From: an uncultured Lachnospiraceae bacterium
GTDB lineage: Bacteria; Bacillota; Clostridia; Lachnospirales; Lachnospiraceae
Assembly (NCBI GenBank): GCA_905236615.1
Contig: CAJORC010000407.1
Coordinates: 1 to 11,404 of the forward strand
Direction: 5' to 3'
DNA length: 11,404 nt
The translations under genes were made by a program, and so were the position numbers. Of this stretch, positions 1-11,404 are shown in pieces. Position 1 is the first letter of the stretch. Each line of letters starts with the position of its first letter. The notes beneath the pieces are model-generated. The model had not been told where the DNA came from and searched no databases. It worked only from the letters and a program-made list of their open reading frames with translations.

Positions 1-363
1 GAATATCGCGCGGAGCAGTCAAGTGTGCGCTTGGCTATGGGTAATCAGTGGCGTGACAGCGGAAAGATATTCACGGCAGAAAACGGCAGCATAATAAACC
101 CCGATACACTTTCATCGTGGTTTAGGGAGTTTATAAAGCGCCATAATCTGCCTGACGCACATATTCACACCTTGCGTCATGTATCGGCTACACTTTTAAT
201 TGCCGGTGGTGTTGATATTGCGACAGTGTCAAAGCGACTCGGGCACGCAAGCAAAAGTACAACACTGAATATCTACACCCACGCCATAAAATCAGCAGAC
301 GAAGTAGCGGCGGAAACTTTACAGAATATATTAAATCCTTCTAAGAATTATCAGATGGGCTGA
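1..363 (+). CDS. Tyrosine recombinase (phage/ICE-type integrase), C-terminal part, truncated by window edge
   Basis: The frame is open from base 1, so this is the tail of a longer gene and not a short protein starting at the internal GTG at 25. About 120 residues are visible. The sequence shows the catalytic signature of tyrosine recombinases: an H-x-x-R box (HTLRH, His at 166-168, Arg at 175-177), the GH box (RLGH, His at 244-246) and the nucleophile Tyr in IYTH at 274-276. The spacing is normal and a typical short tail follows the tyrosine. The other catalytic Arg/Lys and the DNA-binding domains must lie upstream of the window. Enzymes of this family cut and rejoin DNA through a 3'-phosphotyrosine link to integrate or excise phages and integrative conjugative elements. 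The TGA stop is followed by a terminator, so it appears to be transcribed separately from the large operon downstream. Whether the upstream part is intact cannot be judged. Confidence 0.94.
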   Translation, partial: EYRAEQSSVRLAMGNQWRDSGKIFTAENGSIINPDTLSSWFREFIKRHNLPDAHIHTLRHVSATLLIAGGVDIATVSKRLGHASKSTTLNIYTHAIKSADEVAAETLQNILNPSKNYQMG

Positions 364-400: not shown

Positions 401-435
401 GGTATAACCGTTTTTAGTGGTTATACCCTTCTTTT
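401..435 (+). terminator. Rho-independent terminator of the integrase gene
   Basis: A perfect 9-bp inverted repeat, GGTATAACC (401-409) with GGTTATACC (419-427), encloses a 9-base loop and is followed at once by a pyrimidine/T-rich run, CTTCTTTT. It lies 38 bases after the integrase stop and about 80 bases upstream of the operon promoter. It would therefore end the integrase transcript and insulate the operon. The opposite strand has no clean T-run next to the stem, so it is probably unidirectional. Confidence 0.75.
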
Positions 436-510
436 ATTACTGTAAAATATCGTAAATGCACGACATAAAATTTTTATATAAATAAACGCAAGAATACATA
501 CTCTAGGGAT

Positions 511-539
511 TTGCATAAAATGACGAATTATGTTATAAT
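511..539 (+). promoter_or_regulatory. Sigma-A-type promoter of the three-gene operon
   Basis: TTGCAT at 511-516 (-35, four of six matches to TTGACA) and a perfect TATAAT at 534-539 (-10) are separated by 17 bases. A TG at 531-532 makes this an extended -10 (TGTTATAAT). Transcription would begin near 546, giving a leader of about 30 bases before the ATG at 575. The ribosome binding site GGAGG lies at 561-565, nine bases before that ATG. No clear operator palindrome overlaps the promoter and no regulator gene is adjacent, so fairly constitutive expression is the simplest reading. Confidence 0.8.
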
Positions 540-574
540 ATGTTAATAACTAATTTTATTGGAGGTTATCAGAT

Positions 575-3500
575 ATGAACGATACTTATATTATCAGTAA
601 AATCAACGAGTTCATGTATAACTTGAGCCAGCAAATGGGTGAGTGGCTCGAGGATAAACTACCGCGTATAACAGATAACTGGTGGAATGAACTAGTAATA
701 AATAATTTGAGTATGCTACAGAGAGAACAGGTAATATCTAATAATATCAATGACGTAAAAGGTTTGGATTTAGCATCACTTCTGCGTATTTTTGATAGAA
801 ATTGGTTCGTTATAACAAGCAAGTTTTTTATAAACAACAGAGAGCGTGATAACGTGAAAAATATGCTTGAAATACGCAATACATGGGCTCATATAACCCC
901 TAATGATATAAATAAAATTAGAATAATATCCGATATTGAAACGATAATCAGTCTAATGCAAACCTTTGGTGCCAGTATGAAAGATACAAGAGATATGGAG
1001 GCTTTCATTTTTGATGTTGAAGAAGACAGAGATATACAGAAGGAAGAGGAAAAAACTGAACCACAGAAGAACAATATAACAGAAATTACAGATGACACCA
1101 TAATTAAGATTGGAAGCTTAGTAGTTTTGGTTAGTGACCCTTCCATTATGGGTGCTGTCACTGGCATAACTGGAAACAAATATTCTGTTCTGATTAATGG
1201 TAAGCTACAGTCATTTTACGAGGAGCAAATAAAACTTTATGAGGCAAATGATCAAAAAGAACAGCTGTCACTAAGGCAAGTGAAATCAGCCATAACAGCC
1301 TATCAGATAAACAATCCTAATTCAAACAGTCTGTATTCGCTTAATTCAGCACGAATTGATTTTGTTCCATACCAATTCAGACCCGCGTTGAAGCTAATAA
1401 AATCTGACAGTCCGAGACTTTTAGTTGCAGATGATGTAGGTGTAGGTAAGACTATTGAGGCTGGTTTAATTCTCAAAGAGCTGGAAGCACGTTCGAGTAT
1501 CAATTCTGTGCTTATAATTTGCCCGAGGCCACTTGTTTCTGAAAGAAAATGGGAACTTGAAATGAAGCGATTTGATGAGAACTTCACACAACTTGACGGC
1601 AGGGAGTTTTTAGAAGCAATTTCAGAAACAGACAGGGATGGTGAATGGCCTGAACGGCACAGAAAAACAATAATTCCGTATTCGCTTTTTGGTGAGGATT
1701 CGATTATGGGTACACAATCTGGCTCCAACAAAAAAAGAAAGGTTCTGGGTTTGGGAGAACTGGACCCTATACCTCATTTTGATTTAGTAATAGTAGATGA
1801 GGCTCATAATATAAGAAATTCAAATACATGGATGTATCGTGGGGTCGAAATATTCTGCAGAAATGCCGATGCTGTTGTATTCTTGACCGCAACACCGTTG
1901 CAAAACAGCAATAATGATTTATATACATTATTAAATTTACTTCGTCCTGACATAGTTATTGATCGGGAAACATTCAGAACAATGTCTGAGCCAAACACAT
2001 ATATAAATAACTTACTACGGATAGTACGCAACCAGGAAGAAGGATGGAATGAGCAGGGTAAAGAGTGTATTGATTCTATTCTTTCAACTGATTGGGGAAG
2101 AAATGTTATACAGCACAATCCTCATTTTGAAGTGATATATGATTTTCTGTCAAAGGAACATGTGACACGTGACGAGAAAATTGATATGATTTCTAAAATA
2201 GAAGGCTTACATTCATTTAATGGACTTATAAACAGAACCAGACGTAGGGATATAGAAAATTTCTGCATAAGAAGGACGCAGACCGTTAGGGTTCCGTATG
2301 ATTTAGTTCAACGAACATTGTATGATATGCTGATTGAATTTGAAACAACATCACTGACGATTTTGCATGGCAGCCGGAGCGTGCGTTTTATGATGTGTAC
2401 AATTATGCGTCAGGCGGCGAGCTGTATATATGGACTTGTACCGTTTATGAAGGATATTTTATCGAGAAGGCTGGAGCAAATTCAAGAGGATGGCGAACTC
2501 TATGAATATGATTATTCTATGGGTGAAGAAGAAGGAAAAGGATTATTTGAGCTTGCAGATAGGATAGCTGAACTTTCTGCAGACCTACCGGAATATGATC
2601 CCAAATTTGAAAAGATGTATGAGATTATAGTACGAAAACAGCGAGAAGATAATAATCGTGTCATTATATTTAGTTCATTCAGACATACCCTGTCTTATTT
2701 GAAAGAGAAATTACAAGACAAAGGTGTAAGAGTTGGTTATGTAGACGGCAATGTTCCCGATGAAGAACGATTTAATCTCAGAAAACGTTTTCTGATGGAC
2801 AGAAACGATACTGATGCAATTGATATCATTCTGTTTAGCGAAGTGGGCTGTGAAGGCCTGGACTACCAATTCTGCGATACAATGATCAACTATGATTTGC
2901 CGTGGAATCCAATGAGAATTGAGCAGCGGATAGGTCGTATTGACAGACGCGGTCAGGAGAGTGACACTGTTAAAATTTATAATATGATTACTGCTGATAC
3001 TATTGATGCGGTTATTTATGACAGATGTCTGAGTAAAATAGGTGTTTTTGAAGATAGTATAGGTGACTGTGCTGAGATTTTGGGAGGCATTAATGATCAA
3101 ATATTAAAAATAATGTTTAATTCTGAACTGACAGAGGAGGAGCGCCAAATTAAAATTGAGAAAATGGCAGATAATGAGGTGATGAAGGTTCAGGAACTGC
3201 ACAGATTAGAACATGAAGAGAAGTCTCTGTTCGGATTTGATCTTTCTGATTATATATTAAACAAAGATGTTCAGGAGGCTGAGAATTCATGGATTTCTCC
3301 TGCAAGCATACAAGAATTAATTAATGTTTTTTTAAATGATTTTCTGGGTGGTGGCGAATATATAATAGGAAAATCGGAACAAAAATCATTAAGACTTTCT
3401 AATGAAAAAAGACAGATACTTCTTGAAAATCTAAAGAAAACAGAAATAGTAAATAACAATAATGCAACAAAACTATGGAATGCTTATCTGAAGTCAGATA

Positions 3501-4144
3501 AGCCGATTTTGCCTGTCACTTTTGATAGTGTGTGCGCAAAAGATAATCGTGACATTACATTTCTTACACAAATGCACCCTCTTGTTATTCAGGCTGCAGC
3601 GTATGAGAGCAGTAAATTCCCGTGTGAACTTGGCATTAGCGTAAGTACGGATGATATACCGCCTGGAGATTACGAGTTTTTAGTCTATGCATGGAAATAT
3701 GTCGGCTTAAGACCTGATATTAAAATGATAGCCGTAAGCGAGAATGAACTGGTACGACAAAATGTTCTGGGATATATACAGTATGGAAGTGAATATGAGT
3801 ATATTCCTCAAAATCATATAAATAAATGGAAAGAGATGGACTCTTTACACTATACTACATGGCAGAATGCAAAGGAAAAATACTCACATGAAGTAAAAGA
3901 CGAATGCAATTATCGTATGGAACAGCTGGGACAGTCGTTTAATCAACGAGATGCTATTTTTAGAAATATGATAATAAATGCAGCTGATGACAAGATCAGA
4001 AGAATGAGAAAATCACAGTTGGACAAGCTTAAATCGGACTTTAATGTGCAGAAGAAAGCAATGGATGAAACAATTAAAAAAGCTGACATACATACAAATC
4101 TGATTATAAAAGGCGTTTTGCATGTTGAACGGGAGAATGTATAA
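575..4144 (+). CDS. HEPN (Swt1-type)-SNF2 helicase fusion protein, RapA/DrmD-like
   Basis: A 1189-aa protein. Residues about 1-135 match the Swt1-type HEPN domain: a helical domain with a conserved LDLASLLRIFDRNW block, ending in the RNase-type motif RNTWAH (Arg101, Asn102, His106; an RX4H motif). Residues about 150-165 are a charged linker. Residues about 178-222 look like a small beta-barrel (Tudor/SH3-like) module, as often found ahead of RapA-like helicases. The SF2/SNF2 motor follows: motif I DDVGVGKT (Lys292), motif II VDEAH (Asp408-Glu409), motif III LTATP (437-441), motif IV around 696-702, motif V around 756-763 and motif VI QRIGRIDRRGQ (784-794). About 255 residues separate motifs III and IV. 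The C-terminal 390 residues are unassigned and end in a charged, probably coiled-coil stretch (about 1100-1170). The start is fixed by GGAGG nine bases upstream. SNF2 enzymes translocate on duplex DNA; HEPN domains of this motif type cut RNA. It is the first gene of the operon. The HEPN-SNF2 call is firm, the RNase activity is inferred and the biological role is not known. Confidence 0.96.
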   Translation: MNDTYIISKINEFMYNLSQQMGEWLEDKLPRITDNWWNELVINNLSMLQREQVISNNINDVKGLDLASLLRIFDRNWFVITSKFFINNRERDNVKNMLEIRNTWAHITPNDINKIRIISDIETIISLMQTFGASMKDTRDMEAFIFDVEEDRDIQKEEEKTEPQKNNITEITDDTIIKIGSLVVLVSDPSIMGAVTGITGNKYSVLINGKLQSFYEEQIKLYEANDQKEQLSLRQVKSAITAYQINNPNSNSLYSLNSARIDFVPYQFRPALKLIKSDSPRLLVADDVGVGKTIEAGLILKELEARSSINSVLIICPRPLVSERKWELEMKRFDENFTQLDGREFLEAISETDRDGEWPERHRKTIIPYSLFGEDSIMGTQSGSNKKRKVLGLGELDPIPHFDLVIVDEAHNIRNSNTWMYRGVEIFCRNADAVVFLTATPLQNSNNDLYTLLNLLRPDIVIDRETFRTMSEPNTYINNLLRIVRNQEEGWNEQGKECIDSILSTDWGRNVIQHNPHFEVIYDFLSKEHVTRDEKIDMISKIEGLHSFNGLINRTRRRDIENFCIRRTQTVRVPYDLVQRTLYDMLIEFETTSLTILHGSRSVRFMMCTIMRQAASCIYGLVPFMKDILSRRLEQIQEDGELYEYDYSMGEEEGKGLFELADRIAELSADLPEYDPKFEKMYEIIVRKQREDNNRVIIFSSFRHTLSYLKEKLQDKGVRVGYVDGNVPDEERFNLRKRFLMDRNDTDAIDIILFSEVGCEGLDYQFCDTMINYDLPWNPMRIEQRIGRIDRRGQESDTVKIYNMITADTIDAVIYDRCLSKIGVFEDSIGDCAEILGGINDQILKIMFNSELTEEERQIKIEKMADNEVMKVQELHRLEHEEKSLFGFDLSDYILNKDVQEAENSWISPASIQELINVFLNDFLGGGEYIIGKSEQKSLRLSNEKRQILLENLKKTEIVNNNNATKLWNAYLKSDKPILPVTFDSVCAKDNRDITFLTQMHPLVIQAAAYESSKFPCELGISVSTDDIPPGDYEFLVYAWKYVGLRPDIKMIAVSENELVRQNVLGYIQYGSEYEYIPQNHINKWKEMDSLHYTTWQNAKEKYSHEVKDECNYRMEQLGQSFNQRDAIFRNMIINAADDKIRRMRKSQLDKLKSDFNVQKKAMDETIKKADIHTNLIIKGVLHVERENV

Positions 4145-7100
4145 TGAAAAAAATAAATTATGAAGAAATATACAATAAAAACCGCGATGACTGGAAAGAA
4201 TTAACTAATAATCCTCAGAAATATGAGGCTCTTTTGGCGGGGCATTATTCAGATAGCAATCATTTTGTATATGAATTAATTCAAAATGCTGAAGATGCCA
4301 AGGCTACTAAAACAGTTATTGAATATTATGAGGATAGGCTGATATTCTACCATGACGGTATTCCTTTTGATGCGGCGGATGTACGAGGAGTCTCTTCAAT
4401 GCTTATGGGAACAAAGGCCAAAGAGGACGCTCAAACGATTGGCAGATTTGGTATGGGCTTTAAGTCTGTGTTCAAATACACGTATCAGCCTGAAATATAT
4501 TCTGATGACGAAGCCTTTTTAATTAGAAATTATTTATTGCCTATTGAAATTAAAGATGGATGGAATTGCTCACAGGAAAAACGTGAAATATCCTATACAT
4601 CAAACAGAAGCATACCAATTCATCCGTTTGCCAGTTCAAAACATTTAACCAAAATAGTAATACCGTTTATGAAAAAGAATAAAAATGGTGAAATTGAGAA
4701 AATATCCGGAGATGATGTGCTTATTAAATTAAGAGAACTGACGGGTGAGATTTTACTTTTTCTCAATCATATAAACAACCTATGTTGGATAAATAAGATG
4801 ACAGGAGAAGGTGCGGCTATTTCGTTAAAATCAGATAAAGCGGATCGTAATCTTGTAGGCTGCAGTATAAGAAAGCTTAATGAGAGTAAAGAAAATACTA
4901 CATATTATCTCAAATATAAAAAGGTTTTTGACCACAAAGATATGAAATCTGCTGAGGTTAGCGTTGCATACAAATTAAATAACAGGGCAAACAACATAAA
5001 TGATATGCCGAGAACAGATATATATGTGTACTTTCCGACAAAAGATGAAACTGATTTGCCATTTCTTGTACATGGCTCTTTTGAAACAGCCGTTTCCCGC
5101 GAAAAACTAATGCATCCATCATCATTCAATAACTATCTCTTTGATGTACTGGGCGATCTGATTGCAAATTCCATGAACAACCTGAAAAACCGCAAACTCA
5201 TAACACAAAATTTTATTCGACGTTTACTGCTTGTTGCCTTTAAGGATGAGGAAGACAATAACACAATACCGGGACTGCGGGATAAAATAACAGAGGTGTT
5301 TTCAGAAAATGCAATGCTACCTGGTACCGACGGACAATATCACAGGTGCGGTGAAATGTTTATTCCTGTACCCTTTGGGATTGCTGAGTTTAGTAAAACA
5401 TCCTTTTTCGGCACATTACTGGCAAATAAAAAATTTGTAGCATTTAATGATAGCAAAGCTGCAAATTTTAGTGAGTACTATTTATGGCTAAAGAACAGTC
5501 TTAATATTAGAATATATACGTTGTTGGATTTGGCGAAGGACTTAAAGAATGTTCCAACACACATTCCGTTCTCTGTTGATGAATTTGATAAGTTTTACAC
5601 GTTAATGGAGGGATATCCTGATAAAGAAGAACAAATATATTCGAGCTATCTTTATAGACCTCCATATGATAAAGATGCGGAGTCAGGAATAAATGAGGTA
5701 TGGTCAATTCTAAGACAATCACCTATTATCATAAATTCTAATAACACGTTATCAGCTGCTTATGAAGGTGATAAGGAAATTCTTTATTTAAATTCATCAA
5801 GTGTATATAAAAGCGTTTCTAATGTAGTACATCATGAAATAGCGGAAAAACATTTAAGTCTATTGAAAAATGATTTTAAATTGAACGAGTTTAATGACTT
5901 TCAATATATTAAGGAGAAGGTAATTCAGAAATATATAAATGCAGAAGAAATATATGAGCCAGAGTATTTATTGGATATTAAACAGATAATTAAGCAAATG
6001 CACAATCCTGTTCAAGCGAAGGAATTACTTGAACTATTACGTGAAGCGTGTATTATGCGTGTGCATGATTATTATGATGGTGATATCGTTTTTGTACAAC
6101 CCGGAAATGCGTATGCAGATATTTCTGATGAAGGAGTAGATTTAAGAATATTTTTTAATCCTCCATCAGAGATGCATGAACAAATCCCCAAATTACCTCT
6201 ATTTGATAAATATTATTTAGATATTGATTTTTATAAAGAAAACGGAATATTAATTGATAATTTAAGGCAGCTGGGACTTTTTACAAAGCTGGTTGATGAT
6301 GGAGAGAGATATGGTAAACACCGTAATATAACCTGGTCAGCGGAAGGTGATTTTTGCCCAGAATTACATATAGAAGGTTTAGGTAAAAATTTAGTATTTA
6401 TTGAAGAGTATCCAGATTATGATCTTTCAAGAAATAAGTCGGAGCAGATTTTAAAATTAATGTTGTCTGAAGCGCATAAGCTTTCAGGACAGATAAAACA
6501 TAAGCAGTATAATTCAGATTATGAAGACAAAGTGTCAATGGCACTAGAGATGAGCAGTAATCACAAGTGGTTATATTGTACAGATGGAGAAATGCATAAA
6601 CCTCAGGAAGTATCATTGTATGAATTAGACACAACGATTTATGGTAAGCCAATCAGAAATAAAGATGCATATAAACAGCTTGGATTTATAGAAAAAGAAC
6701 AGGATGTAGCCGAAGAAGCATTTGAAATAGTTGATAACCTTGATGAGAGAAATAAAAAGATACTTGCAAAACAACTTGCAAGAGAATTTGGTTGGAGTTT
6801 TGTGGAAGATGACAATGCACAGGTAGATCACTATACTAATAAGGCTGTATATAATACAAATGAAATTTTTACTGCGAATGACTGGGAGTTAAATGAATTT
6901 CCGTCGCATAAGATTCGTAATATGGATAGCCTGGTTGAACATGTAAGACAGCAGTTTTACTGCGCAGATCCTGTGAAATACAAACGTGTGTGGAGGCAGA
7001 TACGTACAAGCAAGTCCTTGCAGACAAGCAGAGCGTATGCGTTAAGTATGTATACAAATTCAGAAAACAATAAAATGTGTCAGATGTGTAAGGAGCCGAC

Positions 7101-7407
7101 ATATAATCCGGAGATAGTTGAAATATCAAACTATGGAATGGAGCTTCCTCAGATGCATCTATGTCTTTGTAGAAACTGTGCGGCTGTATATAAAAGCATG
7201 AGAGATTTGGATAAGGATAATTTTAAGAAAATGATTAGGCAAAAAATTTGTGATATAGATATCTCATCAGATGAAGACAACTGCTTTGTAGAACTGATGC
7301 CTGACATATTCATAAACTTCACACAGACTCACGCCGCAGAATTACAAATATTATTTAAACTTATAGAAGAATATGGTTTGCCCAATATAGGCGAAGCGGT
7401 ATCTTGA
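4144..7407 (+). CDS. Sacsin-type GHKL (Hsp90-like) ATPase with C-terminal zinc ribbon
   Basis: A 1087-aa protein. The N-terminal 110 residues carry a complete Bergerat ATP-binding fold: N-box ELIQNAEDA (Glu44 general base, Asn48 metal ligand), G1 box HDGIPF (Asp71 contacts adenine) and G2/lid TIGRFGMGFKSVF (Gly100-Phe110). The form ELIQNAEDA plus GRFGMGFKSVF is that of sacsin-like ATPases rather than histidine kinases or MutL. Residues to about 350 continue this module, and residues about 350-970 match nothing I can name. A four-cysteine cluster, C979-x2-C982 and C1009-x2-C1012 (LCRNC), resembles the zinc ribbon of HNH proteins but lacks an obvious HNH catalytic histidine set, so a structural zinc site is more likely. 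The ATG at 4144 overlaps the preceding TAA by one base (TAATG), with GGGAGA seven bases upstream, which indicates translational coupling with the HEPN-helicase. No signal peptide or membrane segment is seen, so it is cytoplasmic. It may act as an ATP-driven conformational switch or scaffold for its neighbours, but this is inference. It could alternatively be an independent chaperone-like protein. Confidence 0.95.
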   Translation: MKKINYEEIYNKNRDDWKELTNNPQKYEALLAGHYSDSNHFVYELIQNAEDAKATKTVIEYYEDRLIFYHDGIPFDAADVRGVSSMLMGTKAKEDAQTIGRFGMGFKSVFKYTYQPEIYSDDEAFLIRNYLLPIEIKDGWNCSQEKREISYTSNRSIPIHPFASSKHLTKIVIPFMKKNKNGEIEKISGDDVLIKLRELTGEILLFLNHINNLCWINKMTGEGAAISLKSDKADRNLVGCSIRKLNESKENTTYYLKYKKVFDHKDMKSAEVSVAYKLNNRANNINDMPRTDIYVYFPTKDETDLPFLVHGSFETAVSREKLMHPSSFNNYLFDVLGDLIANSMNNLKNRKLITQNFIRRLLLVAFKDEEDNNTIPGLRDKITEVFSENAMLPGTDGQYHRCGEMFIPVPFGIAEFSKTSFFGTLLANKKFVAFNDSKAANFSEYYLWLKNSLNIRIYTLLDLAKDLKNVPTHIPFSVDEFDKFYTLMEGYPDKEEQIYSSYLYRPPYDKDAESGINEVWSILRQSPIIINSNNTLSAAYEGDKEILYLNSSSVYKSVSNVVHHEIAEKHLSLLKNDFKLNEFNDFQYIKEKVIQKYINAEEIYEPEYLLDIKQIIKQMHNPVQAKELLELLREACIMRVHDYYDGDIVFVQPGNAYADISDEGVDLRIFFNPPSEMHEQIPKLPLFDKYYLDIDFYKENGILIDNLRQLGLFTKLVDDGERYGKHRNITWSAEGDFCPELHIEGLGKNLVFIEEYPDYDLSRNKSEQILKLMLSEAHKLSGQIKHKQYNSDYEDKVSMALEMSSNHKWLYCTDGEMHKPQEVSLYELDTTIYGKPIRNKDAYKQLGFIEKEQDVAEEAFEIVDNLDERNKKILAKQLAREFGWSFVEDDNAQVDHYTNKAVYNTNEIFTANDWELNEFPSHKIRNMDSLVEHVRQQFYCADPVKYKRVWRQIRTSKSLQTSRAYALSMYTNSENNKMCQMCKEPTYNPEIVEISNYGMELPQMHLCLCRNCAAVYKSMRDLDKDNFKKMIRQKICDIDISSDEDNCFVELMPDIFINFTQTHAAELQILFKLIEEYGLPNIGEAVS

Positions 7408-7445
7408 TTTGATAAATAACAGTTAAAAGAAAAGAGGTATATTAA

Positions 7446-10400
7446 ATGGCACAGCATATTTCACTAAGAGTACCGTGGCATGATAACGGCTGGAATGGTA
7501 CTGTCTGCAATAATCCTGCGGAGAACATTTCATGCCTGCGACTGAAAAATATATTTGAAAACCGTGATGATAATTTGGAAGAAAAATTTGCGTCGTGTAA
7601 ATTTTGTTCTCTTGCATGCAATAAGGATATGCCCTGCTTAAAAGAGGGCGGCGCATTTATGTCTGATGAGCAGATTGAATTCTTTGTTGAGCATCCATAC
7701 AGCAAATACGGTTATAGCACACATGATCATTTGCTGCCTACGAAGGAAATTATGCCACCGTACTCATACCCGGCAAGGCCATACAGATGGACAATGAAAA
7801 GACGCTATATAGGTCCTAGACAATATTTAAGGATTGAACAGCTTGCTACTGAACAAGGTATAGACTACCACGCGGAATACGAGCCTGAAATGAAAAATAA
7901 AACGTGGGTTCAGGATGGAAGAAATCAGCGCGCTATATTCAATAAATTTTTTGAAGACGTTGAGCCGGACAAGTCTCTGTGTATTTTCTATGCAAAACAA
8001 GTCCCGTTTGTTGAGGATTCGAGAAGAGTGGTTATAGGCATAGGTCATGTCAAGGCAGTATACCCGTCTGTTGACTATGAAACATCAGATACGAACAAAA
8101 TGACATCGTGTACATGGGAAACGATGATTCAGCATTCTATAAGAAGCAATATGGAGGATGGTTTTCTTCTGCCGTATGATAAGCTGACGGAATATGCTGA
8201 AACAGATCCTAATTTTGACATAAATAAGGTGGTTGTGTTTGCAGAAAACGATTTTTTTGAGGAATTTTCATATGCGTCTGAGCATTTAAGCTATGATGCC
8301 GTAATTGATGTTATTTTACAGTGTTTAAAAGTAATTGAAATTGCAAAGGAATACCATATAGAAGGTGATTGGAACAAGTGTATTACATGGCTTAACCAAC
8401 AGCTGATTGAAGTTTGGGAGGACAGAGGTGCATTCCCGGGACTTGGAGCGATGCTGACTGCATTTGGTGTACCATCGGGTGTAGCGGCAGCCAAGGAATT
8501 GAAAGACCAGAGCCACAATTCAGAAGATTTGTGGGAACTACTGGATAAGGCAATAGATAAGCCGGACAATTATTTTTCTGATTTTTGTAGAGATAATTTT
8601 AATGAAACTATAAGAACGACGTGGAAGAATCTCCCCAAAATCAGGAAGAAGCTTTTCATGATGCTCTCTAGGGTCGATTTGTCTATTAAACAGGCGCAGA
8701 CGCTGTACAATAAGGAATTGCGAGAATATAGCAAAATTATGCATACAGATAATGAATTGCTTGAAAATCCATATCTTCTTTATGAAAGCACAAGAAATAA
8801 AATTGATGCATTAAAGGTATCTATAAAAAAAGTTGATTTGGCTTTTTTTCCGATGCCTAATGTAAAAAATCAATATCCTATTGAAGCACCTTCAAACATT
8901 GAATCTGAAAATGATTCACGGCGTGTACGGGCTTTGGCAGTGAGCATTTTGGAAAAAAGTGCTCTTGAAGGCCATACAATAATGCCCATGAATAATCTTG
9001 TTATACAAATAAATCAGCTTACTGTAGAACCGCCATGTCCAGTAAACGGTGATATAGTAGCAGCGATGAACGATTATTTTAAAGACGAGATTGTGTGCAA
9101 TAAAGATGCTCTTGGAAGGGAATACTATAAACTTGTACGGTACAAGAAAATTGATCATATAATAAATTCACAGATAAAAAAGCGTGTAAACAGCACAAAT
9201 CGTCATATTATTGATGTTGACTGGCGAGCTCGTGTTGACGAGGAACTGAAGTACATGCCGAATGATGATGCACTTGAGGAAAGGGCAAGACAAGAAAAAG
9301 CTGCTGCACTTAAAGAAATGGCAGAAGCGAGAGTTTCCGTTCTAATAGGTGGAGCAGGCACAGGTAAAACTACGGTTCTTTCTATACTATGCCAAGAAAA
9401 GAGAATACAGGATGATGGCATTTTGCTACTTGCGCCTACAGGTAAGGCAAGCGTGCGTATGACACAATTACTAAAAGGAAAAACAAAATTTCGCGCTTGT
9501 ACAATTGCAAGCTTTCTGAATAAAAGCGGAAGATATGACCCTGCTACATATAATTATAGAATATTGGAAGGCGCTGAAAGAGGCAAGGATAAGCCAATAA
9601 GTGAAAAAACGGTTATTATAGATGAGTGTTCAATGCTCACAGAGGAAATGTTCGGAGCGCTTTTGGATGCTGTGAAGTATGCCGAAAGAATTATTTTTGT
9701 TGGAGATGCAAATCAATTGCCGCCAATCGGTGCCGGACGTCCGTTTGTTGACCTTTTGCGTTATTTGCGTTCGGTTTCGGATATTGAAGATTTTCCAAAG
9801 GTGGGCAGAAGCTATGCAGAGCTTATAACTACAAGACGGCAGCTTCCGGATAAAAAAACAGGAACTTTAAGAGCCGATGTACGCCTTGCTAAATGGTATA
9901 CGGAGGATACTACTGACATGGATGAGGCTGTATTTCGTGAAATTCAGTCTGGCACAAAGGACGGAACTGTTATATTTAAACGATGGAATGACAAAGATGA
10001 ACTGGAAAGAATCCTGCTGCATACAATTGCGGAATTGTGCGGCATGAAAAATATTGATGATATAGAAGGCTTTAACCGATATCTGGGTGCAACTGTATAT
10101 AACGACAACAATAAAACTCTTTTTTATGCCTCAAAAGACAAAGATAAAGAGATGGATGATATACCAGCGGAAAGGTGGCAAATTTTATCACCTGTCAGAA
10201 ATAATGCCCATGGTGTACTTAATATAAATCATCTTATTCACGGGAAATACAGAGCCGAATTTCTCGAAATGTCGGTAAGCGAGAACTCTAAAATTCCTAA
10301 TCAAATGGGACCTGAGAATATTGTTTATGGTGATAAGGTTATAAATGTTGTTAATTCAACGAAAGAAGCTTATCCTCAAGATAACGCCGAAAATTTTGTT

Positions 10401-11180
10401 GCTAACGGTGAAATAGGTATTGTGTGCGGGCATTATGGAAGCGGAAAAGCGAGGCAGTATCTAAAAATTGAATATACGACTCAAAAAGGTTACACATATT
10501 CATATACTGAATCAGAGTTTAATGGAGAGGGGACAATTCCATTAGAACTCGCATATGCGCTTACTGTACATAAAGCGCAAGGAAGTCAGTTTGAGGATGT
10601 TATTCTTGTACTTGATGATAAATGCATCTTAGCTTCAAAAGAACTTTTATATACCGCATTGACAAGACAGCGGGGGAAGCTTATAATTTTATATAATGAG
10701 GATGCATTTAATTTACGAAAATTTTCATACGGCTATTATTCAGATGTGGCGAAAAGATTTACTGACCTTTTCACTCCACCGAAAATTAGACAAATCAATA
10801 ACAGATATTATGAAGAAGACCTCATTCATTGTGCAAATAATGGAACCATGGTGCGTTCCAAATCAGAAGTAATAATCGCAAATATGCTTAGTGAAAACGG
10901 TTATGATGATTTTTTATATGAGGAACCGTTGGCAATAGGTGATTCATACTTTCTGCCTGATTTTACAATTAAAGATAAGGCTTCCGGTAATACAATTATT
11001 TGGGAACATTGTGGCATGATGGATGATGAGGACTATAGAAAACGTTGGGAGAAGAAAAAAAGAGTTTATGAAGCAAATGGTTATTCAGAAGCAAATGGAA
11101 ATTTAATTGTCACAGAAGAAACAAAGAATACTGGATTGAATTCAAGCCTTTTGCAAGAGAAGATAGATGAATATCTGTAA
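7446..11180 (+). CDS. RecD2-like SF1 helicase with Cys-rich N-terminus and C-terminal PD-(D/E)XK nuclease domain
   Basis: A 1244-aa protein. Residues 1-70 contain RVPWHDNGWNGTVC and six cysteines (21, 30, 51, 54, 58, 64), suggesting a metal-binding module. Residues about 70-480 are unassigned and include a Gly/Pro-rich block, GAFPGLGAMLTAFGVPSG (328-345). Residues about 490-580 look like the winged-helix region that precedes the motor in RecD2 (LEKSALEGHTIMP). The SF1 motor follows: motif I GGAGTGKTT (Lys641), Ia APTGKAS (663-669), II IIDECSM (Asp726-Glu727), III GDANQLPPIGAG (753-764), V ALTVHKAQGSQFE (1038-1050) and VI LYTALTRQRGKLII (1068-1081). Residues about 1125-1244 form a PD-(D/E)XK-type nuclease: Glu1141 (SKSE), Pro-Asp1172 (LPDF) and Glu1187 (IIWEHCG). 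The usual ExK lysine is replaced, since His-Cys follows the Glu. The gene starts 38 bases after the GHKL gene with its own AAGAGG eight bases upstream, so it is most likely in the same transcript. The likely role is 5'-3' DNA unwinding coupled to DNA cleavage; polarity and cutting are inferred from family. Confidence 0.95.
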   Translation: MAQHISLRVPWHDNGWNGTVCNNPAENISCLRLKNIFENRDDNLEEKFASCKFCSLACNKDMPCLKEGGAFMSDEQIEFFVEHPYSKYGYSTHDHLLPTKEIMPPYSYPARPYRWTMKRRYIGPRQYLRIEQLATEQGIDYHAEYEPEMKNKTWVQDGRNQRAIFNKFFEDVEPDKSLCIFYAKQVPFVEDSRRVVIGIGHVKAVYPSVDYETSDTNKMTSCTWETMIQHSIRSNMEDGFLLPYDKLTEYAETDPNFDINKVVVFAENDFFEEFSYASEHLSYDAVIDVILQCLKVIEIAKEYHIEGDWNKCITWLNQQLIEVWEDRGAFPGLGAMLTAFGVPSGVAAAKELKDQSHNSEDLWELLDKAIDKPDNYFSDFCRDNFNETIRTTWKNLPKIRKKLFMMLSRVDLSIKQAQTLYNKELREYSKIMHTDNELLENPYLLYESTRNKIDALKVSIKKVDLAFFPMPNVKNQYPIEAPSNIESENDSRRVRALAVSILEKSALEGHTIMPMNNLVIQINQLTVEPPCPVNGDIVAAMNDYFKDEIVCNKDALGREYYKLVRYKKIDHIINSQIKKRVNSTNRHIIDVDWRARVDEELKYMPNDDALEERARQEKAAALKEMAEARVSVLIGGAGTGKTTVLSILCQEKRIQDDGILLLAPTGKASVRMTQLLKGKTKFRACTIASFLNKSGRYDPATYNYRILEGAERGKDKPISEKTVIIDECSMLTEEMFGALLDAVKYAERIIFVGDANQLPPIGAGRPFVDLLRYLRSVSDIEDFPKVGRSYAELITTRRQLPDKKTGTLRADVRLAKWYTEDTTDMDEAVFREIQSGTKDGTVIFKRWNDKDELERILLHTIAELCGMKNIDDIEGFNRYLGATVYNDNNKTLFYASKDKDKEMDDIPAERWQILSPVRNNAHGVLNINHLIHGKYRAEFLEMSVSENSKIPNQMGPENIVYGDKVINVVNSTKEAYPQDNAENFVANGEIGIVCGHYGSGKARQYLKIEYTTQKGYTYSYTESEFNGEGTIPLELAYALTVHKAQGSQFEDVILVLDDKCILASKELLYTALTRQRGKLIILYNEDAFNLRKFSYGYYSDVAKRFTDLFTPPKIRQINNRYYEEDLIHCANNGTMVRSKSEVIIANMLSENGYDDFLYEEPLAIGDSYFLPDFTIKDKASGNTIIWEHCGMMDDEDYRKRWEKKKRVYEANGYSEANGNLIVTEETKNTGLNSSLLQEKIDEYL

Positions 11181-11340
11181 AATGAAATTCGGGCATACTC
11201 TTTTTTAGAAAAGAAACAGATAGACTAAATGATGAATACCGGTATATGTACGTTTGTCGTATTCTTTATCAACATTATAACAGAATAAAGTTGAAAAAGT
11301 AGCAAATTTTTTAGCATAGATTTTAATTTTTAAACCCCAT
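11181..11340 (+). promoter_or_regulatory. Downstream intergenic stretch with a possible weak promoter
   Basis: No open frame of note. TTGTCG at 11254-11259 and TATAAC at 11276-11281, spaced by 16 bases, could be a modest promoter for a gene that begins beyond the window. A 10-bp palindrome, ATACCGGTAT, lies just upstream at 11236-11245. A short inverted repeat (GAATAC 11234-11239 with GTATTC 11259-11264) has a 19-base loop and is too weak to call a terminator. No convincing terminator for the operon is seen after the stop at 11180, so transcription may continue to the right. Confidence 0.3.
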
Positions 11341-11370
11341 AACGGACAAACAACGGACAAAACGGGAAAA
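11341..11370. repeat. Short tandem direct repeats AACGGACAAA (two copies plus one degenerate)
   Basis: AACGGACAAA at 11341-11350 recurs one base later as AACGGACAA at 11352-11360, and again in altered form as AACGGGAAAA at 11361-11370. The period is about 9-11 bases, close to one DNA helical turn, so copies would face the same side of the helix. Such iterated short sites can be binding sites for a recombinase (arm-type sites), an initiator or a regulator. Nothing in the window says which. Confidence 0.55.
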
Positions 11371-11404
11371 TGAGAGAATCAAAGCAAAATATTTTGACAT
11401 CAAA

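Follow-up and report, generated by a model that had tools for sequence, protein, structure and literature searches.

The window considered here is an 11,404-nucleotide stretch from an uncultured Lachnospiraceae bacterium, the entire contig C407 of a draft genome (2.47 Mb, 447 contigs, 76% complete). It holds three large genes, here called G1, G2 and G3, and the question that it raises is whether these belong to one anti-phage system. All three are intact open reading frames (ORFs) on the plus strand, 3' of an integrase fragment. A preliminary description of the sequence had taken them for a single three-gene defence system, and its gene boundaries, strand and spacing agree with ours: a 1-base overlap joins G1 and G2, and a 38-base gap separates G2 from G3. 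The comparison of related loci shows that the natural unit is the G1–G2 pair, not the trio. Our preferred reading, to which we give a probability of about 0.58, is that a portable anti-phage module is present here as a stand-alone copy, with G1–G2 as its core and a helicase–nuclease, G3, as an optional part. The defence role and the mechanism are those that we infer from context, motifs and precedent.

The conserved G1–G2 pair

G1 (575-4144, 1189 residues) is a RapA/BrxHII-like SNF2 motor bearing a Swt1-type HEPN domain, as seen from Pfam, PADLOC and NCBIfam matches and an alignment of 80 sequences. The HEPN_Swt1 domain (PF18731, 36.3 bits against a cut-off of 27.5) covers residues 15-125 (617..949). 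Its Rx4H motif, R101-N-T-W-A-H106 (875-892), is kept in 70 of the 80 aligned sequences. With a score above the Pfam cut-off and an Rx4-6H motif in place, the domain is, by sequence, a predicted ribonuclease (RNase). The motor belongs to helicase superfamily 2 (SF2) and extends from the Walker A motif (residues 289-293) to the DEAH box (residues 408-411) over 1439..1807. Its Pfam matches (SNF2-rel_dom, 71.6 bits; Helicase_C, 73.4 bits) are far beyond chance; GxGKT and the D and E of the DEAH box are present in all 80 rows of the alignment, and the A and H in 79. The closest solved structure is RapA (PDB, E 1.2e-28), while the best PADLOC match is the DrmD model PDLC02623 (385 bits over residues 180-1059), with 198 bits for the BrxHI/HII models.

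G2 (4144-7407, 1087 residues) is a sacsin-type GHKL ATPase with a zinc-finger-like motif near its C-terminus. It matches the SACS profile at 47.8 bits (cut-off 32.8) and the NCBIfam profile P_loop_sacsin at 87.6 bits (cut-off 50), and its best profiles are of the sacsin type. The Bergerat motifs accompany the profile match: the N-box residues E44, N48 and D51, together with G100, G103 and G105, are present in all 42 aligned G2 homologs. Crystal structures of sacsin SR1 match G2 by profile (E 1.8e-20), and a predicted model of G2, with a mean predicted local distance difference test score (pLDDT) of 84, resembles the ATPase folds of Hsp90, sacsin, MORC and MutL. The putative zinc site, C979-x2-C982 ... 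C1009-x2-C1012 (7078..7179), is nearly invariant, with C979, C982 and C1009 kept in 42 of 42 homologs and C1012 in 40.

Relatives of G1 were collected by scanning GTDB genomes with two peptides from its SNF2 region. The best 80 of 209 confirmed loci were joined by three of three IMG/VR contigs and one locus from a phage record (L051), giving a set of 84. Since the loci were chosen by the G1 peptides alone, G2 played no part in the choice. Seven loci with less than 600 bp left 3' of G1 were set aside, and a gene was called sacsin-type if it matched a three-sequence profile, which included the G2 of the window, at an E value of 1e-8 or better. In 75 of the remaining 77 loci, the next same-strand ORF of at least 150 residues after G1 is sacsin-type, and the median gap between the two genes is 6 bp. 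In the two exceptions the sacsin gene lies at another place of the locus: L077 has a permuted order, sacsin-G3-G1 followed by a helicase that bears a PLD-like domain, and in L128 a 202-codon ORF sits between G1 and the sacsin gene. As a control, sacsin-like proteins make up only 3 of the 626 other ORFs of at least 150 residues in the same loci, two of them being the displaced partners of L077 and L128. When G1 is clustered, clusters with room for a neighbor have at least one member with an adjacent sacsin gene in 34 of 34 cases at 70% identity, 50 of 52 at 80% and 60 of 62 at 90%, the window included.

The G1 tree was built with a quick LG+G4 search in which long branches were flagged, so that the numbers of changes given here and below are minimum counts; L108, L113 and L135, in which G1 is cut or split, lie outside the 80-row alignment. 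G2 falls into two size classes, 17 loci with at least 1400 residues and 51 with 950-1399 (three cut copies left out), and the class switches at least nine times on the tree (68 rows; eight times without a doubtful clade). The neighbor remains sacsin-type throughout these switches, and thus the slot is conserved even though its occupant has been replaced. G1 and G2 distances are also correlated (rho 0.737 over 40 loci, with 0 of 999 permutations as high).

The pair is sparsely distributed. In a sample of 398 genomes from the phylum, G1 (at E 1e-60) was found in its own genome and in 0 of the 397 others. It is present in the three IMG/VR contigs and on plasmids of Rhizobium, Ensifer and an archaeon, Methanomethylovorans hollandica; in the archaeal record the second gene of the pair bears the annotation of an HSP90-family chaperone. 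Nine plasmid records hold G1-like helicases at E 1e-40; four have a sacsin match, and the five that have none, at 24-30% identity, suggest where the edge of the family lies. A second sacsin-type gene (1074 residues) follows G2 in one BREX-linked locus (L061, 17334-20558).

G3, an accessory to the pair

G3 (7446-11180, 1244 residues) is a full-length member of the PADLOC family PDC-S68 (model PDLC05065, 1469 bits, residues 2-1243 on positions 5-1218 of 1221). We take PDC to stand for "phage defence candidate" and S for a single-gene candidate, whereas here G3 is the third gene of an operon, after G1–G2. An N-terminal region with no named domain is followed by a RecD2-like helicase core of superfamily 1B (SF1B) at residues 614-1087 (9285..10706), recognized by AAA_19 (101 bits), AAA_30 (89.5 bits), UvrD_C_2 (48.4 bits) and TIGR01447 (154 bits, under its cut-off of 310). 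Against the RecD2 equivalog TIGR01448, G3 reaches 231.8 bits with a cut-off of 500, and is accordingly RecD2-like rather than RecD2. As SNF2 and RecD motors share the P-loop (RecA-like) fold, the operon encodes two ATPase folds and not the three distinct ones originally counted. The C-terminal part is a putative PD-(D/E)XK-like nuclease with the residues S-K-S-E1141 ... P-D1172-F ... W-E1187-H ... K1204 (10827..11114). Walker A and the E..PD..WEH..K residues are conserved in 15 of 15 homologs, and the E, PDF, EH and K of the nuclease region are invariant in alignments of 9 and of 15 homologs. In a predicted model of a homolog (mean pLDDT 72), the C-terminal elements follow one another in the order alpha-beta-beta-beta-alpha-beta, which fits the PD-(D/E)XK topology. 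The Foldseek and VIA lists for this model contained helicase-core matches (residues 431-1067) and confirmed no nuclease fold, because the helicase core filled them.

The gene is an accessory to the pair and also stands alone. Among the 55 loci in which over 7.5 kb of sequence follows G1, 17 have G3 and 38 do not. In 14 of the 55 it is co-oriented with G2 and 3' of it, other genes intervening in L103, and three more loci (L077, L120 and L121) have it on the far side of G1; in L078 only a 121-residue fragment is left. On the G1 tree its presence changes state at least ten times. The G1 genes of L062 and L110 are near-identical (end branches of 0.0046 and 0.0025), yet only L110 has G3. The correlation between G1 and G3 distances is rho 0.407 over 15 loci, with 10 of 999 permutations as high. 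Treating the trio as one system, and expecting the three genes to be conserved together, is therefore not upheld: the pair is kept, G3 is missing from most loci that have room for it, and G3 already has a family name of its own.

Occurrences of G3 away from the pair point the same way. In the phylum sample, G3 (at E 1e-40) was found in 6 of the 397 other genomes, two of these copies being broken or partial, and the four G3 loci that were fetched (L144-L147) contain no G1. In a sample of 295 genomes from the order, G3 is matched above 250 bits in four other genomes, and G1 stands beside G3 only in G277; G222 and G112 have a different sacsin-type gene beside G3. Eight plasmid records carry a full-length G3. 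Six of them have no match to G1 or G2 in the 19-30 kb fetched, and the other two have only weak SNF2-like or sacsin-like matches.

Several of these G3 loci have unusual surroundings. In G222 (L040, 5994-11018) a 60%-identical G3 is next to a 1674-residue protein that by eye appears to be a fusion of a sacsin-type GHKL ATPase with a superfamily 1 (SF1) helicase; a 997-residue helicase with a TOTE-like and PLD-like look then follows, in a gene order that recalls TALON-type loci. In G112 (L044, 3-13160) an open frame of 4385 codons lies directly 5' of the G3 homolog. The gene sizes in G297 (L144, 1873-17874) are like those of the HsdM-HsdS-HsdR-YgjP genes of L115, and a stop-broken G3 and a long sacsin-type gene occupy the place of G1–G2 in L115. 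On a Rhizobium leguminosarum plasmid (L033, 12001-17609) the G3 homolog is split by an insertion of ~1.9 kb with a 508-residue ORF in reverse orientation, and on an IncC-typed Vibrio fluvialis plasmid (L034, 12001-16966) a lone G3 homolog adjoins a Qnr-family gene.

Genes in front of the pair and its likely role

The systems upstream of the pair were labeled using chosen seed proteins and Pfam and PADLOC scans of selected neighbors (8-10 proteins per scan); as only these neighbors were scanned, the number of loci with no recognized system is an upper bound. Absence of a system was scored for the window itself and for rows that offered more than 3 kb of upstream sequence. Labels were given on less than this to L078 and to L066 (an 88-bit HsdM match), and the BREX label of L055 comes from a 139-residue PglZ fragment. 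A recognized system lies upstream in 25 of the 68 classified rows: 10 BREX (bacteriophage exclusion), 10 type III restriction–modification (R-M), 4 type I R-M and 1 resembling DISARM (defence island system associated with restriction–modification). PglZ is matched in 12 of the 84 G1 loci, counting the fragment, and in 10 of the 12 it ends 2-44 bp 5' of G1. PADLOC upholds five of the PglZ proteins as well as the PglX and BrxC of L058. The gene sets in front of the pair include PglX-PglZ, type III Mod-Res and type I HsdM-HsdS-GmrSD-HsdR, and the DISARM-like locus (L057) has DrmA-DrmB with NERD-UvrD and DpdB-like genes. Some relatives are near BrxL, GmrSD, AIPR, OLD/TOPRIM with UvrD, SIR2 with UvrD, McrBC or TOTE-like genes. 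The defence context proposed in the preliminary description thus holds for these relatives. On the G1 tree the labels switch 15 times or more. A portable accessory module for defence is the reading that best suits a conserved pair behind such varied systems.

In five loci (L082, L085, L086, L089 and L135) the type III Mod-Res genes are preceded by a conserved pair encoding a PDC-M30A-like protein of ~380 residues and a radical SAM protein of 260 residues. The record behind L051 (MT835838.1) was deposited as "Bacteriophage sp."; it has a PglZ recognized by PADLOC and a PglX-like gene, followed by G1–G2, and we do not accept a phage origin for this DNA, which is probably bacterial BREX sequence.

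Unlike the BREX-linked copies, that in the window is preceded by an integrase fragment and has no modification gene linked to it. The fragment (1..363, plus strand; Phage_integrase PF00589, 53.4 bits with a cut-off of 27.1) is the C-terminal 120 residues of a phage-type tyrosine recombinase, truncated by the contig edge, and its best phage matches are ~42% identical. A comparison of the integrase side (341-575) with the downstream end (11161-11404) revealed no integration-site repeats of 10 bases or more. Between the integrase and G1, a pattern scan picked out a terminator-like stem of 12 pairs (4 G-C) with a T-rich tail (401..437, plus strand); the window has 6 such sites compared to 5.0 in shuffled sequences. 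GGAGG lies a short way 5' of the G1 ATG, and a promoter-like site, TTTGCA-18-TATAAT with TG ahead of the second hexamer (10 of 12 positions; 510..539, plus strand), is well placed for the operon. However, promoter-like sites are no commoner in the window than in shuffles (43 against 47.4, standard deviation 6.3), and the "single strong promoter" of the preliminary description is not established. A perfect sigma-70 consensus, TTGACA-17-TATAAT (12 of 12), occurs at 10659-10687 inside the G3 coding region, probably by chance.

How such a module might act can be sketched from its parts. G1 and G2 would form one ATP-driven complex, in which the SNF2 motor moves along invading DNA and G2 closes in an ATP-dependent manner, as Hsp90, MutL and MORC do, serving as a clamp or switch that keeps the complex on the DNA. 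G2 may also hold the HEPN RNase silent until engagement with DNA persists or a partner restriction system is neutralized, at which point the HEPN domain, a last-resort RNase, would cut RNA and halt the infected cell. G3, where present, would unwind and degrade DNA. Behind BREX or R-M the module might be a second line or an effector arm; the window copy, which has an integrase fragment beside it and lacks a linked modification gene, would have to act by itself or together with unlinked genes. There is precedent for parts of this scheme. Operons with a GHKL ATPase beside SF2 helicases, SWI2/SNF2 among them, are described as an R-M theme with a proposed role in DNA looping in PMC2292703, and PMC3710099 proposes that R-M-linked HEPN RNases are kept silent by R-M subunits and freed when these are neutralized, as for PrrC. 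Gating of the DNA engagement of the motor and of the HEPN RNase by G2 would resemble the gating of PrrC. By analogy with these two papers, the division of labor put forward in the preliminary description, in which the motors sense, the PD-(D/E)XK domain degrades DNA, HEPN aborts and the GHKL protein gates, is plausible.

A more specific version is that the sacsin ATPase and the HEPN motor are a conserved switch that is passed as a unit among otherwise unrelated systems (BREX, R-M of types I and III, DISARM-like loci), with the sacsin protein as the ATP-gated regulator of an RNase on the motor that is set off once the primary system fails. We put this forward tentatively, and consider it rather doubtful. 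If it were true, animal sacsin, which has Hsp90-like repeats and HEPN in one chain, would be a remote reflection of this kind of pairing, although according to PMC3710099 the HEPN of animal sacsin is of another family.

A number of observations weigh against the portable-module reading. No modification system is recognized in 43 of the 68 classified rows, the window being one of the 43, and some loci have quite ordinary neighbors: carbamoyl-phosphate synthase in L064, GatB in L120, a heparinase-like and one unnamed protein in L125, VIT/DUF2135 and one unnamed protein in L088, DUF2130 in L053, DUF4379 in L054 and DUF2201 in L104. The scanned neighbors of L069, L079 and L084 match no family. As classified, the picture of a plug-in to other systems therefore covers a minority of loci. 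The HEPN domain is dispensable, being absent from 3 of the 80 G1 sequences and altered in its motif in 7, and the Rhizobium and Ensifer plasmid copies of G1 align only from residue 180 on. RNA cleavage thus cannot be the core function everywhere, and the constant core is the motor–ATPase pair rather than the RNase. A separate small HEPN gene for the copies without the domain was also considered, but among the small ORFs 5' of G1 in Rhizobium, Ensifer and Methanomethylovorans none was HEPN-like by eye or in an Rx4-6H search; those in Rhizobium and Ensifer appear by eye similar to sigma-factor-like proteins. Finally, the nuclease assignment for G3 stands on its conserved residues and predicted topology, but Pfam and PDB sequence searches with the C-terminal stretch named no nuclease and gave no notable match.

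Three other explanations compete with a portable module. The operon could be the 3' half of a type-5-like BrxC-PglX-PglZ-G1-G2-G3 array that lost its core by recombination at the integrase and is now decaying or inactive. Just such an array exists in Butyrivibrio sp. MC2013, a member of the same family (L058, NZ_KE384211.1; the same locus as G277/L052), where G1, G2 and G3 are 66%, 51% and 48% identical to those of the window. Moreover, the window G1 falls in a starred clade of 18 rows, 9 of them BREX-linked, the integrase fragment is directly 5' of G1, and the genome has no match for PF08665 (PglZ), PglX or BrxC. This absence is weak, however, since the genome is 76% complete and the PglX and BrxC queries had no positive control. 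Against decay, the three ORFs are intact and their active sites conserved; L053, the relative with the highest identity (71%), has its DUF2130 gene and no BREX in 3.7 kb upstream; and the many rows with no recognized system mean that a pair without BREX is common. We therefore regard a BREX remnant as unlikely.

That all three genes are obligate parts of one machine is very unlikely. The recurrent placement of G3 next to the pair, mostly 3' of G2 on the same strand, and the correlation of G1 and G3 distances would fit, but not the many loci with room and no G3, the near-identical G1 genes of L062 and L110 that differ in having it, or the plasmids on which G3 has neither partner within the stretch fetched. 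A role for G1–G2 in DNA repair or in remodeling of a transcription- or chromatin-like kind, outside defence altogether, appears highly improbable. RapA, the nearest solved structure to G1, recycles RNA polymerase, and RecD2 and the GHKL protein MutL are repair proteins, so that these roles would suit the parts; the patchy distribution, the frequent BREX and R-M neighbors, the plasmid and IMG/VR occurrences, and a HEPN domain typical of conflict systems all speak for defence instead.

Comparison with known systems

Profile scans of the window proteins with PADLOC and NCBIfam point to no single named system holding all three, at the level of profile matches, which agrees with the preliminary description, except that G3 by itself belongs to the named candidate family PDC-S68. 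The similarity of G1 to DrmD and, at a lower score, to BrxHI/HII makes the comparison with DISARM and BREX closer than was first thought. Membership of DISARM can nevertheless be rejected: G1 scores 292 bits against the NCBIfam DISARM_DrmD cut-off of 610, DrmB and DrmC have no match in the window, and the DrmA model is met only by the helicase core of G1 (139 bits). What is shared is the DrmD-like motor and, in one related locus, the company of DrmA and DrmB. The window also lacks the BREX core genes PglZ, BrxC and PglX. In type-5 BREX with BrxHII, as described in the main text of PMC12839542, a helicase takes the place of BrxL, and in our PglZ loci an SNF2/RapA-like helicase likewise follows right after PglZ. 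G1 differs in its N-terminal HEPN, its near-constant sacsin partner and its occurrence with other hosts or alone. None of the 11 mentions of HEPN in that main text places the domain on BrxHII, and GHKL, HATPase and Hsp90 do not occur in it.

ARMADA (PMC12458937) is similar in being a multi-helicase defence array, whose members include a helicase like BrxHII and a UvrD helicase like GajB that bears an RNase domain; its YprA-like helicase and PglX-like methylase are not recognized in the window, and the words sacsin, HEPN and GHKL are absent from the text searched. The MORC and paraMORC operons of Iyer 2008 (PMC2292703) share the GHKL ATPase beside an SF2 helicase (SWI2/SNF2 in one class) and the R-M neighborhoods. 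The same arrangement recurs in our set, given the adjacency in 75 of 77 loci and R-M or BREX upstream in 24 of the 68 classified rows. However, the GHKL proteins there are MORC-like and often accompanied by HNH or EcoRII-like nucleases, whereas here the ATPase is of the sacsin type and HEPN is part of the helicase; the word "sacsin" does not occur in the text searched. The architecture of G1 itself was reported by Anantharaman in 2013: PMC3710099 lists a Swt1-like HEPN fused to SWI2/SNF2 (one table entry, WQE_15321, predicted active), and the passages searched describe no sacsin partner or association with a host system.

Among sacsin-type proteins, G2 matches the TmtA model with 171 bits (residues 7-635 on positions 8-612 of 1302). 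The likeness is in the sacsin-type GHKL N-terminal region; TmtA models have 1302-1782 positions, and G2 covers about the first half. We take TmtA to be the gene of Tiamat, a single-gene system. In the main texts searched, supplements apart, no HEPN-SNF2 and sacsin pair is described, and the searched text of PMC13092281 contains none of the terms sacsin, SNF2, GHKL and Tiamat.

Defence systems are usually cataloged operon by operon. Here, the order of the pair holds in many lineages even as the system upstream varies, which points to a general accessory function, such as a second-line response or an effector arm, common to BREX, R-M and DISARM-like loci. It makes testable the role of RapA/BrxHII-like helicases in type-5-like BREX and that of bacterial sacsin-type ATPases, and PDC-S68, so far a candidate by name, gains a recurring context. 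The HEPN-SWI2/SNF2 architecture, PDC-S68 as a PADLOC candidate and BrxHII in type-5 BREX were already known; what is new relative to the literature searched is the near-constant pairing of a HEPN-SNF2 motor with a sacsin-type ATPase, and its placement behind several modification systems.

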